Assembly: GCA_016840405.1 (NCBI GenBank)
Contig: JAEOSK010000004.1
Location: forward strand, 49,174 to 113,173
Direction: 5' to 3'
Source: Candidatus Hermodarchaeum yapensis
GTDB taxonomy: Archaea > Asgardarchaeota > Hermodarchaeia > Hermodarchaeales > Hermodarchaeaceae
DNA length: 64,000 bases
Shown here: piece after piece, positions 605 to 46,341 of the stretch
Layout: each line of letters opens with the position of its first letter
How positions within the stretch are numbered: position 1 is the first letter of the stretch
Program-made: the position numbers and the translations under genes
Notes under the pieces: generated by a model
Told to the model about the DNA's origin: nothing
Database searches by the model: none
What the model saw: the letters and a program-made list of their open reading frames with translations, nothing else

Positions 605-1612
605 TTACTTCTGGAGGGTTAAGCTATCAGCATAGGGTGCAAGTGTTTTATCAATTTCAGTCATTTGTTTGTTAGAGAGAGGGCCATATTGGAGTGTTTG
701 GCTGATTTCCTCGACTTGCTTTTCGGTTTTAAAGCCGGGTATTGGGATGACTTGGGGTCCAAGAGCTAAAAGCCACCCAAGGGCAGCTTGCGTTAAGGTA
801 CGTCCGCCTCTGATGAGTATGTCGTGAATCATTTCGAGCATCTCAAGTTGTTTCGCTTGTCGTCCTTCTTGCATGTCCCACGCGGCTCGAATGTCGTTAG
901 GTACCTTTGAACTCTTGCTAAATTTTCCAGTCAGCAGACCCATAGCGAGTGGACCCCGTATGATATTCGCTTGGTCGAATTCTTCACAAAGGGCTAGCAT
1001 TTCTGTATTGCGCTCAAAGATATTATAGTGGTATTCCATAGCGGTGCAATGAGGTCCTGCAATAAACGTTCTAGCCCGATCAGGATTGACTGTACTCCAC
1101 CCATAAGCACGAATCATTCCGTTATCGACGAGAGTTTCCATCATAGGTACGAGAGCTTTTGCGAGGTGGGCATCGTACGCATTACAATGAAACAAGTAGA
1201 GGTCGATATAGTCGGTGTTAAGGCGTTGGAGACTGGCTTCACAGGCTTTTCGAATCGATTCGGGTTGGATAAGATCTGGATCACCTAACCAAGTCCTAGT
1301 GTCTTCTTCGAACATGCCCCCAAACTTGGTGCATATGATGACCTCATCTCGGTAACCTTTCAAGGCTTGACCTAGAATTCGTTCACTATGACCGCCTCCA
1401 TAGGCATCAGCTGTATCAAAGAAATTAATACCTAAATTCAGAGCTCTATGGATGGCTTGGATGGAATCGTCGTCGTTCACTTGACCATAACTCAACGCAA
1501 CTCGTTTACCTTCAGTTTGATACCAAAGGGGTCCACCAATAGCCCAACAACCGAGTCCTACCGAACTGACTTCAATCCCACTTCGACCTAATTTTCGAGT
1601 ACGAGTTTTCAT
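605..1612 (-). CDS. Aldo/keto reductase
   Basis: MKTRTRKLGRSGIEVSSVGLGCWAIGG...FFDTADAYGGGHSERILGQAL; the annotated upstream start (1786) reads into a repeat, so the internal Met at 1612 is preferred. Confidence 0.9.
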   Translation of the reverse strand: MKTRTRKLGRSGIEVSSVGLGCWAIGGPLWYQTEGKRVALSYGQVNDDDSIQAIHRALNLGINFFDTADAYGGGHSERILGQALKGYRDEVIICTKFGGMFEEDTRTWLGDPDLIQPESIRKACEASLQRLNTDYIDLYLFHCNAYDAHLAKALVPMMETLVDNGMIRAYGWSTVNPDRARTFIAGPHCTAMEYHYNIFERNTEMLALCEEFDQANIIRGPLAMGLLTGKFSKSSKVPNDIRAAWDMQEGRQAKQLEMLEMIHDILIRGGRTLTQAALGWLLALGPQVIPIPGFKTEKQVEEISQTLQYGPLSNKQMTEIDKTLAPYADSLTLQK

Positions 1613-1700
1613 TTTATCATTCTTCACGTTTATGTTAATCTGATAACTATCAAACATACATTTTTTCTTATCATTGAACCATCGGCCGGCAATTTCATTA

Positions 1701-1822
1701 GCACAATATATCTTATTAAGATTAGAGTAAACGGTTTTTCTTTGATTTATGTGCCATTCTCTCGGGTTTCGAAGACATATGTGCAATTCCGATCAAATGA
1801 CGTGAAAGATGATTTGGTTCAC
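1701..1822 (-). pseudogene. Degraded partial copy of the 210..515 sequence
   Basis: Nucleotide similarity to 365-488 (both share GGGTTTCGAAGACA and GACGTGAAAGATGATTTG); its reading frame is interrupted. Confidence 0.4.
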
Positions 1823-1887
1823 ATTAAAAACTTCTAAAAATCCTTCGCCGAAGATACTAGCAAAATGCTTAGCGTGTTCTTCAAATC

Positions 1888-2994
1888 TTATGATTGCAGT
1901 TCCATGGTTTCTCTCAGCCTTTTCCCCCGTAGAGCATTCATTTTGTTCTTGATTAAGCTTAGACCAACAATTTTTCGGTCGAAGGAAATGGTCATTTGAG
2001 GTGAAAGATATGTGATGCTAGCACTGCCAATGGCATCGGGAAATTTTTCGCGATAATTCTCTTCCCACCTAAGATGACTTCCAATGCTATGGTGGTTTCC
2101 AAAGAGTAAGATGTTGTATTTTCCATGGAGGACTTTGTAGCCTATCGGAATGTAAGGATCTTGAACAATCTCACGAATGATCTTTTCTTTAGACTTTTTA
2201 ATTTCAAATAGTGAATAGGTCAATACATAATTTGGTGGTACAAAATAATTAGGAAAACGGCAAATCGGGGTAGCGAGTATATTCTTTTTTAGTAGTGATG
2301 CTATCCGCTTTTCAACCGTCTTTCGATGTAATCCAGTTTTTTCACATAAAGCAGCGTAGTTGGCTTTAATTCCATTTCCATCAACTAATTGTTTCATGAT
2401 TTCGATATCGACAATGTCGAGGGGGTGGCCATTTAAAGTCAGTTCACCCTTCGCTTTGAAATCGCTCTCAATGAGATGAATTCCGGAGTTGGGGTCGTAT
2501 TTGATTATACGTTGATTCGAAAAATAAGTCGTGCTCGAATTAAAATTCGCACCTTCCTCAGAGAGCCCATATTGCGATTTTAATATTGAAGGTAATGATT
2601 CCATGTAAATTTGGAAGTTTGTGATGTCTTTATGATAAACGAACAGTATGGTATCATAGTCTCCTTGCCGTGAACTAAAAGCTGCGAATATATATGGATC
2701 CTCTTTTACCCAGTTCTCGAATTTTTTTCGATCCTGTGGCGTTTTCGGTAGGTCTAATTGTAGATCAATGAGTAGCGGATAGTATTGATAAAGACCGGGG
2801 AATCTAAAAACGGGGCGATCGAGAATTTTATGATTAAAGAGTTTTTCAACTTTTTTCCTAATAGTATTTCTGTGTTTACCAAGAGCTCTTGAAAGATTGC
2901 TGAGGTTGACATTTACAGCCTCACCAGATACCAGACTTTGCATTAGTATCAGATCTTCTTCATTCTTTAGTAAATTTGACATAATTTCACGCAC
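1888..2994 (-). CDS. Lrp/AsnC-like transcriptional regulator with internally duplicated HTH and ligand domains
   Basis: GKHRNTIRKKVEKLFNHKILDRPVFRFPG is repeated as GLHRKTVEKRIASLLKKNILATPICRFPN; EDPYI...GDYDTILFVYH is repeated as QDPYI...GKYNILLFGNH. Confidence 0.7.
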   Translation of the reverse strand: MREIMSNLLKNEEDLILMQSLVSGEAVNVNLSNLSRALGKHRNTIRKKVEKLFNHKILDRPVFRFPGLYQYYPLLIDLQLDLPKTPQDRKKFENWVKEDPYIFAAFSSRQGDYDTILFVYHKDITNFQIYMESLPSILKSQYGLSEEGANFNSSTTYFSNQRIIKYDPNSGIHLIESDFKAKGELTLNGHPLDIVDIEIMKQLVDGNGIKANYAALCEKTGLHRKTVEKRIASLLKKNILATPICRFPNYFVPPNYVLTYSLFEIKKSKEKIIREIVQDPYIPIGYKVLHGKYNILLFGNHHSIGSHLRWEENYREKFPDAIGSASITYLSPQMTISFDRKIVGLSLIKNKMNALRGKRLRETMELQS

Positions 2995-3068
2995 TTTAAG
3001 CCAATATTAATATCTTTTTCGTAATATTATATCAACTTTGTCATTATTCGTTGTTGATTATTATCTTA

Positions 3069-3089
3069 TCAAATATGAATATTATTTGA
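3069..3089. promoter_or_regulatory. Perfect dyad TCAAATA-N7-TATTTGA between divergent regulator and gdh
   Basis: TCAAATATGAATATTATTTGA read directly in the AT-rich divergent intergenic region. Confidence 0.5.
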
Positions 3090-3237
3090 ACAAATGTGTC
3101 AATTATGTCATTTCTCTTTGCATAATAGTTAATCTATTTTGTATTTTTTCTCAAAAATTTGTAATCTATATTTAATAATATCTATTCTTCAATTTATAAT
3201 CAGAGCAAACACAAAAATTGTAAAAAAGGTGTTTATA

Positions 3238-4452
3238 ATGGAACAAACGGTTGTTGATTTACAGGAACAACGAATTTCCGTACTTGATGATTTGCTCGAA
3301 CAAGTAAACGTTACCAGCCTTCTAGATTCTTGGGGACCAGAGAAGGTCATCCAAGTCTATGACCCTAAAATTAAGATGGAGGGGATCCTCGTAATTGATA
3401 ATACGGCGCGGGGTCCTGGTAAAGGAGGATTTCGAATTAGCAGTGGTGTCACGCCTACCGAGGTCTTTAAGCTCGCGAGAACAATGACATGGAAATGCGC
3501 TTTAGCGGATCTTCCATTTGGCGGAGCAAAGGGTGCAATTAATGCAGATGCTTATTCGATTGATAAAATTCGATTCGTGAAGACTTTCGCCAGAGCTGTT
3601 TCCACTTTTTCACCCGATCAATGGGTGGCTGCTCCAGACATGAACGTGGGTGAGAAGGAGATTGAAGCGTTCGTTGAAGAAATCGGTAGTATGAAGGCAG
3701 CGACGGGGAAACCTGAACGCCTTGGAGGAATCCCTCATGAACTTGGTACTACAGGGTTTGGAGTGGGTGTATCAATTGAATCCACCTTGGAGGTTCTCAG
3801 TAAAACGGTGACAATTCAAGAGACACTTGAGAACCTAAAAGTCGTCATTCAGGGCTTTGGCAATGTTGGCTCAGAACTCACTAAGTATTTGGCGAATAGA
3901 GGCGCGCGGATTGTAGGCATTAGCGATTACTGGGGGGCAGCATATAACCCGAAGGGAATCGATGCTTCAAAAGCGTTGAAACACGCCTATGCCTGCGATG
4001 AAGCTCATTCTATTAAGGGATGTAAGGGTGCAACTGCAATTGCCAGAGATGATGTCACTTATTTGAATTGTGATATCTTGGTTCCGGCTGCGATATCAAA
4101 TGTCATCACAGGCCAAAACGCCTCGAAAATAAAAGCGAAACTTGTTTTTGAAGCTGCAAACAACCCAACAACCATCATAGCAGAACAGACCCTCTTTAAG
4201 AGAGGAGTCTTAGTCATTCCCGATTGTATAGTGAATGCGGGTGGGGTTATCGGTTCCTATGTTGAGTATATCGGGGGGAGTCCTGATGAAGCCTTCGCGA
4301 TGATTGAAGCGAAAATCTCACAAAATACACGTAAAGTGCTGAAAAGCGCAATCAACAGCGATACTATCACATTACCACGGGCCATGGCGATGAAGATTGC
4401 ACAAAAACGCGTTTCACAAGCAATGCATCGACGAGCAGGTCAAGAATTATAG
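3238..4452 (+). CDS. gdhA: Glutamate dehydrogenase (Glu/Leu/Phe/Val dehydrogenase family)
   Basis: GKGGFRISSGVTPTEVFKLARTMTWKCALADLPFGGAKGAI; Rossmann VVIQGFGNVGSE; likely ATG at 3238 (MEQTVVDLQEQR). Confidence 0.93.
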   Translation: MEQTVVDLQEQRISVLDDLLEQVNVTSLLDSWGPEKVIQVYDPKIKMEGILVIDNTARGPGKGGFRISSGVTPTEVFKLARTMTWKCALADLPFGGAKGAINADAYSIDKIRFVKTFARAVSTFSPDQWVAAPDMNVGEKEIEAFVEEIGSMKAATGKPERLGGIPHELGTTGFGVGVSIESTLEVLSKTVTIQETLENLKVVIQGFGNVGSELTKYLANRGARIVGISDYWGAAYNPKGIDASKALKHAYACDEAHSIKGCKGATAIARDDVTYLNCDILVPAAISNVITGQNASKIKAKLVFEAANNPTTIIAEQTLFKRGVLVIPDCIVNAGGVIGSYVEYIGGSPDEAFAMIEAKISQNTRKVLKSAINSDTITLPRAMAMKIAQKRVSQAMHRRAGQEL

Positions 4453-43854: not shown

Positions 43855-45063
43855 GTGGCATCCATCCCCAATGTCCTTCGTAAAGAAGGCGTCTTTAGCT
43901 TCGTTGTTCTTCTTTTCGTCTGTAGCATAATTTGGGCTATGTTTTTGTCCATTTCGTGGGGTGCACATTTCGCACCGCGTATCGCGTTAGACGATGATAC
44001 GATGCACAAGACGGTTATCTATTACATGTTGAATGGTGAAGATTTCTATACAGCTTGGCGACATGCAGCACAGGCTACTGGAGATTTAGGTGATTTACGT
44101 ATCTATCGGACGCCCCTCATCTTCTATCCAGTCGTATTTCTTACTGGTTGGGCAGGTGCAGGCTTTATTTTTCCGTTAAGTGTACTTTGTGTTTGTGTCG
44201 CTGCATTGAATCTCATCCTTACATTTTGGACTACTCGGACCATTACGGGATCGGGTTGGGCAGGCTTGGCGGCAACGGGTGTTCAATATACCTTCTTTTT
44301 CAACGTCATTCCCTTATTCCAAATCTCCCTCTTTGCAATGCCCTTCCTCATTCTAACCATCTATTGGGCGTGGACTGACCGACCATGGTTGGCAGGAGGG
44401 TTCCTGGCCATGGCATTTCTCATCAAAGAAACCTTTGCCTTTGCTCTCCCTGCGATTGTTATCTTCTTCCTGATGAAACGACAAGGACGACACGCCCTGA
44501 TCATCCTTGGGATTTTCATGGGAGCATTGAGTATCTATTTTCTGCATACAATAATTGCACAACCAGTTTCAGGGCTCGAATTATTATTTGGTGCAAGTCT
44601 TCCAGTTTTCATTTCAAACCTAGCAGGATTTCTCTGGTTTGGTTTTGGAGCCCTATACTACAATGTCTTGGCTCCGGCGACATTTGAGGGCTATTACCCC
44701 TCCAACCCAGTTCCTGTATTTATTCCCTTACCCGTCTTCTATTGCGTGTTGTGTCTTCAGATTATCTTGGTGTGGGGAACCTTCCTATGGTGGACCGTGA
44801 GATATATTCGGACCCGACAAACACCTCCCAAACCCCTTCTGGTAATGGCTCTAATAATGTGGATTGTACCCCTTGTATTTACAGCGACTACTACGGTCTG
44901 GGATTTTCCATTGTTCTGGATGGAGTATGCCATTTGGCGATGGTTTGCCGCCTCCTATGTGGGATTCCAGTTACTCGTTGCATTAAGCTGGACTAATCTA
45001 AAACCTGCGATAAAAAGGACCTTGGCAGGACTTGTATCATCTACTCCCATTTTTTCTTCGTAA
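43855..45063 (+). CDS. Polytopic membrane protein, possibly GT-C-type glycosyltransferase (GTG start)
   Basis: Multi-TM, ...YRTPLIFYPVVFLTGWAGAGFIFPLSV. Confidence 0.6.
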   Translation: MASIPNVLRKEGVFSFVVLLFVCSIIWAMFLSISWGAHFAPRIALDDDTMHKTVIYYMLNGEDFYTAWRHAAQATGDLGDLRIYRTPLIFYPVVFLTGWAGAGFIFPLSVLCVCVAALNLILTFWTTRTITGSGWAGLAATGVQYTFFFNVIPLFQISLFAMPFLILTIYWAWTDRPWLAGGFLAMAFLIKETFAFALPAIVIFFLMKRQGRHALIILGIFMGALSIYFLHTIIAQPVSGLELLFGASLPVFISNLAGFLWFGFGALYYNVLAPATFEGYYPSNPVPVFIPLPVFYCVLCLQIILVWGTFLWWTVRYIRTRQTPPKPLLVMALIMWIVPLVFTATTTVWDFPLFWMEYAIWRWFAASYVGFQLLVALSWTNLKPAIKRTLAGLVSSTPIFSS

Positions 45064-45139
45064 TCGGTTACTCAAAGAAATGCTGAGATGTGCCCTCAAT
45101 TACACAAGCAGTATAAAAAGCAACATACGCCCCATACAA

Positions 45140-45360
45140 GGTTAGTTACCGGCAATCAGAATATTAGACCACCCTTGAGTTAATGCCTCTTGGTGGAGGG
45201 CGGTGTTGTTTATTCGGCACCTGCCCTCCGAACTGTCCGGTAACCGCAGCAGATGCTTGGGAAGCATCCGGGGAGTATTGATGACCCATCTAGACGGATG
45301 GCGAGAAGAAACAGGACCCCCATATTTGGGGAGCAGAGTGGGAGGGGGGATTCATTTTTT
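45140..45360 (+). ncRNA. Candidate novel structured RNA gene
   Basis: TATA box GTATAAAAAGC at about 45111-45121; GTTACCGG (45145-45152) pairs with CCGGTAAC (45237-45244); GGAGGGCGGTG (45195-45205)/CACCTGCCCTCC (45218-45229) with one bulge; GATGCTTgggAAGCATC; CCATCtagacGGATGG; CCCCcatatttGGGG; T6 at 45355-45360. Confidence 0.55.
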
Positions 45361-46341
45361 CATCGGTGGTTTCCGGATTTGCCATATACGGACCAAACCA
45401 TCAGCTGATCCCACTGCCAGCCAACGCCTAGTTGGTGATACCGACACAGTATACACCCCTTTAACAGGTAGTTCATACTGCTTGTGAATCTCACCAGATC
45501 GAATGTCCCACATACGAACACCATAATCGATGGCCGCAGCGACCTTCTTGTTGTCTGAAGTAAAATCGAGGTCACTGGCCCGAGATTCCAAAGATATTGA
45601 AAGATGTTCTTCCCAATCTTTTGTCGACCGAATTTTCAGGGTTTGTTCATAGCCTATTGAGCCTAGCCACTCACCATCTGGGGAAAAAGTCACGGCGGAA
45701 ACTGCAGTTTCGTGTCCTGTTATTTGTCTGATGAACTCACCGGAGGGAAACTCCCAGAGAAAAATATCATCGCCTAATCCCCCAGCCACTAAGAATTTTC
45801 CATCAGGTGAGAATGAAATGGAAGCAATATTCCGTCTCAAATTCGTAAGTGTCAGCTGCTCTGTTCCAGATGTCACATCCCAAATCTTGACATGCCCATC
45901 ATATGAACCAGAAGCAACGTATTCACCAGTCGGCGAAAATGCCACAGTTGCGACAGTCTTCCTATGTCCACTGAGCGTGTGTTCAAGCGTTCCAGAGGGA
46001 TACTGCCAAATCTTTACAGTGGCATCTGTGGATCCCGTTGCCAAGAAGTCACCCTTAGCGGCTATTGCCACTGAATTCACACTGTTCGTATGTCCAAAAA
46101 GTGTGTTGAGTTGGTTCCAATCGTTTACAGACCAAATTTGGGTGAGATTATCCATTCCACATGTGATTAGTACACTATTATCTAGAGAGAAGAGGATATC
46201 AGACACATGGCGAGTATGAGCATCGATAACGATGGGCGGATCCATTTCGAACGACACCTTCTGAATTCTCTTTTTGGCTTGGAGAGAACGAAGATGTCTA
46301 TATTGTAGTGTTAGACAGGTAAAAAGCCTAGCTAGTTGCAA
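45352..46341 (-). CDS. WD40-repeat beta-propeller, about 7 blades
   Basis: Repeated GH...V..V.FSP.G....SGS.D...KIWD units; likely start near 46247 (MDPPIVIDAHTRHVSD). Confidence 0.92.
   Translation of the reverse strand: MQLARLFTCLTLQYRHLRSLQAKKRIQKVSFEMDPPIVIDAHTRHVSDILFSLDNSVLITCGMDNLTQIWSVNDWNQLNTLFGHTNSVNSVAIAAKGDFLATGSTDATVKIWQYPSGTLEHTLSGHRKTVATVAFSPTGEYVASGSYDGHVKIWDVTSGTEQLTLTNLRRNIASISFSPDGKFLVAGGLGDDIFLWEFPSGEFIRQITGHETAVSAVTFSPDGEWLGSIGYEQTLKIRSTKDWEEHLSISLESRASDLDFTSDNKKVAAAIDYGVRMWDIRSGEIHKQYELPVKGVYTVSVSPTRRWLAVGSADGLVRIWQIRKPPMKK

Follow-up and report, generated by a model that had tools for sequence, protein, structure and literature searches.

The familiar RNPs of archaea are four: those of the box C/D and H/ACA sRNAs, the SRP and RNase P. 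Box C/D sRNAs carry box C (RUGAUGA) near the 5' end and box D (CUGA) near the 3' end; H/ACA sRNAs are built of a hairpin with a guide pocket and a 3' ACA box. A kink-turn consists of a bulge of 3 nt with G.A and A.G pairs after it, set between C and NC stems, and both kinds of guide contain one, formed by RUGA and GA strands and dependent on L7Ae. L7Ae is a general archaeal kink-turn binder and binds the kink-turn of SRP RNA (PMC5539422) as well as, according to a study of Pyrococcus furiosus RNase P RNA, the two kink-turns of that RNA (PMC4245976). In Gram-positive bacteria, OLE RNA is the product of an orphan gene with highly conserved nucleotides, and one report describes recognition of its kink-turn by OapC (PMC9723947). 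A survey of the open-access full-text literature yielded no paper describing Asgard-lineage-specific non-coding RNA genes, nor the RNA reported here.

Here we describe a new RNA family, represented in a stretch of 64,000 nucleotides (hereafter, the window) of contig C58 in the source genome G000, a 2.7 Mb MAG of Candidatus Hermodarchaeota. This lineage belongs to Asgard, the archaeal group nearest eukaryotes. The RNA is encoded in the gap at 45064-45351 between a membrane-protein gene (43855-45063, + strand) and a convergent WD40 gene (45352-46341, - strand); the strands of the two ORFs confirm that both neighbours are oriented into the gap. The predicted gene is flanked by its own promoter and T-rich DNA; its 5' end is placed at P1, whereas the 3' end is uncertain, at about 45320-45360. 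The features of the locus are as follows.

45089-45106, + strand: conserved element just ahead of the TATA box, reading TGTG...CACA in the majority of homologues, from the alignment of homologues
45112-45120, + strand: TATA box TATAAAAAG, identical in six genomes
45145-45321, + strand: predicted RNA gene of about 177 nt, with R1/R2 model matches in six genomes and no Rfam family
45145-45152, + strand: P1 5' strand GTTACCGG, pairing with 45237-45244; 98% of cells paired, with both partners altered in three pairs
45186-45193, + strand: unpaired segment CCTCTTGG; CCTCTTG invariant in six of six, last G altered in G001 only (A2 and A6 alignments)
45195-45205, + strand: P2 5' strand GGAGGGCGGTG, pairing with 45218-45229 with one bulge; 96% of cells paired
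45218-45229, + strand: P2 3' strand CACCTGCCCTCC, partner of 45195-45205
45237-45244, + strand: P1 3' strand CCGGTAAC, same pairing, 98% of cells paired
45246-45251, + strand: near-invariant linker, GCAGCA in five sequences and ACAGCA in G005
45252-45268, + strand: P3 hairpin GATGC-TTGGGAA-GCATC, loop NTGGGAA invariant; 93% of cells paired, with both partners altered in two pairs
45270-45273, + strand: P4 5' strand GGGG; GGGGA invariant, partner CCCC, UUCC or CCUC in homologues, read from the sequences
45278-45306, + strand: kink-turn-like element UU-GAU-GA-C [CCAUC uagacg GAUGG] C-GA-GA, same arrangement in G001 and G007
45317-45320, + strand: P4 3' strand CCCC, pairing with 45270-45273; alternative partner here 45327-45330

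Thus, P1 encloses P2 and the invariant CCUCUUG and is followed by GCAGCA, P3 (loop NUGGGAA) and P4.

A preliminary description, made from the window alone, had proposed an undescribed structured RNA gene in this gap, and all the sequences it named are found at their places, including the TATA region (GTATAAAAAGC, 45111-45121). Its long-range helix is P1, with strands 92 nt apart start to start, and its single-bulge hairpin is P2, the helix of which covers GAGGGCG/CGCCCTC of the homologues; the CCACC/GGTGG pairing, by contrast, is not conserved. Of the three 3' hairpins in that description, GATGCTTgggAAGCATC (45252-45268) is supported as P3 and CCATC..GGATGG (45286-45301) is present, but CCCCC..GGGG (45317-45330) is not conserved. 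The sequences of the 3' part stand, but not as separate hairpins: we rebuilt this part as one helix with a kink-turn-like element, in which CCCC at 45317-45320 more likely pairs with GGGG at 45270-45273 than locally. The T6 run (45355-45360) is where it was reported, but inside the last codons of the WD40 gene. The gap is richer in GC than its surroundings, as claimed (0.54-0.57 inside vs about 0.38-0.50 around). Folding against shuffled controls proved only mildly unusual on the single sequence (221 nt, z -1.23; 153-nt core, z -2.70); single-sequence stability is therefore no proof of an RNA, and it is the comparative data that provide one.

The locus matches no catalogued RNA family. Rfam 15 (4227 families) gave 0 hits in the 64 kb at gathering score, and relaxed E-values produced chance hits only, with no credible match in the window or the homologous loci. 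The only G000 match to archaeal SRP RNA (RF01857) is at C24:22360-22699 (120.8 bits) and the only one to archaeal RNase P RNA (RF00373) is at C17:9705-10091 (166.2 bits), with none to either at the RNA locus. Because both RNAs are encoded elsewhere in the same genome, the faint likeness to SRP domain IV in the preliminary description is not meaningful. The new RNA resembles archaeal SRP RNA in being encoded by an independent structured RNA gene but matches it in neither sequence nor structure, and resembles archaeal RNase P RNA in being structured but has no match to RF00373. In its RUGA/GA strands, the probable kink-turn resembles that of the H/ACA and box C/D guides, but neither terminal C/D boxes nor guide arms, a pocket or an ACA box were found in the RNA, which has a separate conserved P1/P2 domain. 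The only candidate for a C/D pair in the RNA is an internal GAUGA...CGA closing a 16-26 nt hairpin; by eye, the loop from the C-stem to GGGG/CCCC measures about 3/3 nt in G007 and 4/10 in the window, and no ACA box follows CCCC in G005 or G007. OLE RNA, compared here by general description alone, is likewise an orphan with highly conserved nucleotides and has a kink-turn, a probable feature of the new RNA, but is about 600 nt long and bacterial.

Another RNA gene of the source genome is unusual in its own right. The 16S rRNA gene (C71, L195, match 619-4212, - strand) is about 3.6 kb long, rather than 1.5 kb, and contains three ORFs (194, 211 and 157 aa) that by eye resemble homing endonucleases. 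Given these ORFs and the span, the gene probably carries several introns.

A DNA search with the locus gave matches in three genomes of the same genus, with separate promoter matches in two of these; when the homologues were aligned, the promoter and the RNA were conserved and the 3' tail was not. A search with the membrane protein led to an RNA copy in another genus, in Ca. Hermodarchaeota YT1_014 (G007). A covariance model built from this sequence and those of Ca. Hermodarchaeota FT1_005 (G001) and YT1_028 (G002) recovers the sequences left out of it, namely, the window (75.9 bits), archaeon H03M_Hermod_104 (G004; 100 bits) and G005 (92.5 bits). By covariance-model search, the RNA is single-copy in six of the eight Hermodarchaeia genomes searched; the six represent two genera. 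In G006, the contig stops 180 nt past the membrane-protein match, short of the place of the RNA in G007; in G003, both the membrane-protein gene and the geranylgeranyl reductase gene are absent, which means that either the assembly or the genome lacks this locus. The R2 covariance model, run with stricter filters on 228 Asgard genomes, found the RNA absent from the other 220, the remaining hits being weak. Those inspected (all but L176, L177, L180, L181 and L184-L190) were rejected as chance hits: L178 (G136, 31 bits) lies inside an acyl-CoA dehydrogenase-like ORF, L052 (G001) appears by eye to lie inside an alanyl-tRNA synthetase-like reading frame, and L050, L051, L179, L182 and L183 lack P2 or have many pairs broken. 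A scan of 85,000 genomes for the pattern GCAGCAKATGCNTGGGAA returned 105 matches, about as many as chance predicts; of 13 scan loci tested with the R1 model, four were strong hits, all on Hermodarchaeota contigs (G001, G002, G004 and G007). The RNA is so far known only from Ca. Hermodarchaeota.

Synteny is conserved as well. All six homologues adjoin the same membrane-protein gene, with the RNA downstream on the same strand. In genus g1, the RNA is separated from the geranylgeranyl reductase gene by the WD40 gene. G005 and G007 lack a WD40 gene at this place yet retain the RNA, which is therefore independent of it. This WD40 beta-propeller gene was gained or lost between the two genera. The membrane protein is polytopic, with weak similarity, below the Pfam cut-off, to glycosyltransferase family 87, and is encoded in seven genomes of the host's family; the other Asgard genomes searched do not have it. 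Nothing in the gene neighbourhood of the RNA points to a process, nor does any other finding, and hence we name no specific one.

The fold itself is conserved. In the Infernal alignment A6, 95.1% of cells are paired; displacing the partners by 1-3 columns lowers this to 34-54%. Six pairs, in P1, P2 and P3, are changed on both sides (column-shuffle mean 2.7), a small count with partly shared ancestry because the six sequences come from one class and four of them from one genus; the observed covariation score was reached in 0 of 500 shuffles. P1 shows concerted replacement of C-G by U-A and of G-C by A-U. Because A6 had been fitted to the model, the fold test was repeated with MAFFT: for the consensus energy, z reaches -5.7 with the model alignment and lies between -4.8 and -5.2 with the structure-blind MAFFT alignments, none of 200 shuffles doing as well. 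Scores are slightly lower for the reverse strand, on which the G-U pairs would turn into A-C mismatches; this supports the + strand. The six sequences are unlikely to be coding: no frame is open in all of them, indels are not multiples of three, and lengths vary from 115 to 147 nt. Candidate pseudoknots CCUCU/GGGG and UUCC/GGGAA were rejected, having no supporting covariation. The compensatory substitutions sought in homologues are thus present and, together with the Rfam negative, support the original proposal; judged from these alignments, the locus is almost certainly a genuine RNA gene.

An archaeal TATA box is centred near -27. In six of six genomes, the first base of TATAAAAAG precedes the first G of P1 by 30-33 nt, which places the transcription start at P1; transcription probably starts at the first nucleotide of this helix. 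On sequence evidence, all six RNAs have a promoter of their own, as expected of an RNA gene. The TGTG-N-CACA-like element at 45089-45106 is a possible operator or a site for an activator or regulator. The promoters of SRP RNA and RNase P RNA in these genomes show no visible copy of it, and a promoter-pattern search of the source genome for sister genes matched exactly only the RNA locus.

Inside P4, G001 and G007 carry the arrangement CC-GAU-GA-C [hairpin, 16-26 nt] C-GA-GG; in the window, the UU/GA C-stem is weaker. A scan by strict kink-turn rules accepted G000, G001 and G007, that is, both genera, against a chance rate of 3-14% per sequence in shuffled tails; in G005 the strands are present but the stem is weaker, G004 fails, and G002 has a perfect plain hairpin, then TATTTT, in place of the kink-turn. 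The P4 element, carried by three or four of the genomes, is a probable kink-turn but not an essential feature of the RNA. Published rules, under which C at position 3b favours ion-induced kink-turn folding, predict that the element, with 3b = C, folds in Mg2+ (PMC5061560).

Taken together, the gene and the fold are well supported. Computation shows the strand, fold and conservation, the synteny and the promoter position, and that the RNA has no known relatives; its partner and function we infer. The reading that we favour, with moderate confidence, is that this single-copy gene encodes a stable, structured trans-acting RNA of about 180 nt that serves as the scaffold or targeting part of an RNP, probably one with L7Ae. 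TBP and TFB would bind the TATA box at 45112, RNA polymerase would start at or beside the first G of P1 (45145), and transcription would terminate in T-rich DNA past P4, although the exact ends are predictions. In the predicted fold, P1 would close the domain containing P2, with hairpin P3 next and the long hairpin P4 last, and the invariant unpaired CCUCUUG, GCAGCA, NUGGGAA loop and GGGGA would probably be the surface that a protein or RNA partner contacts. L7Ae would bind the kink-turn-like element of P4, as in other archaeal RNPs; such binding would make a scaffold or targeting part of a small RNP the most likely role. Against this stand the failure of the strict kink-turn test in G004 and G005, the absence of the kink-turn in G002, and the competing local hairpin available to CCCC of P4 in the source genome. 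On balance, assignment to an RNP appears reasonably probable. We suggest only tentatively, as an unlikely but distinct version, a lineage-specific housekeeping-type Hermodarchaeota RNP, like SRP or RNase P, assembled on L7Ae and built around an RNA without relatives elsewhere, which would be a new functional class of archaeal RNA.

The main rival, in our estimate unlikely, is a trans-acting antisense regulator in which the unpaired pyrimidine-rich CCUCUUGG, along with CUCCUUUUCC in most homologues, would pair with purine-rich or Shine-Dalgarno sites in mRNAs, with P4 being a mere stabilising 3' hairpin. The pyrimidine-rich segments are conserved and unpaired in the model, G002 swapped the kink-turn for a plain hairpin followed by TATTTT, and GGAGG-type sites are expected from the canonical anti-Shine-Dalgarno at the end of the 16S rRNA. 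However, CCUCUUGG is a poor anti-Shine-Dalgarno match, and the CUCCUUUUCC segment is not conserved in the source genome, which has GAACTGTCC there. Complementarity between the unpaired segments and the 16S locus, also considered, was dismissed as only 7-8 nt matches at chance level were found.

That the RNA always follows immediately after the membrane-protein gene, in the same orientation, and that its 3' end may overlap the end of the WD40 gene could indicate a cis-acting element, either a processed 3' UTR of the membrane-protein mRNA or an antisense to the end of the convergent gene; we find this improbable given the identical TATA box of its own at near-fixed distance in six of six genomes and the retention of the RNA in G005 and G007 without the WD40 gene there. 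Membership in a known guide family (H/ACA or box C/D) or highly diverged kinship with SRP or RNase P RNA, which the likeness of the kink-turn-like element to C/D and H/ACA kink-turns might suggest, seems very improbable: Rfam gives no match even when relaxed, SRP and RNase P RNAs are present elsewhere in the genome, and terminal C and D boxes, a pocket of the usual size and an ACA box after P4 are lacking. That the structure arose by chance in an ordinary intergenic spacer is scarcely credible; the ordinary single-sequence folding energy would fit, but sequence, promoter, structure and synteny are kept across two genera, and the covariation test already disfavours it.

To return to the proposed L7Ae RNP, the family can be aligned, and its covariance model, invariant residues and predicted 5' end allow a direct search for the transcript and its partner. 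If the RNA forms an RNP with L7Ae, it would add an RNP beyond the familiar four to the archaeal group closest to eukaryotes.
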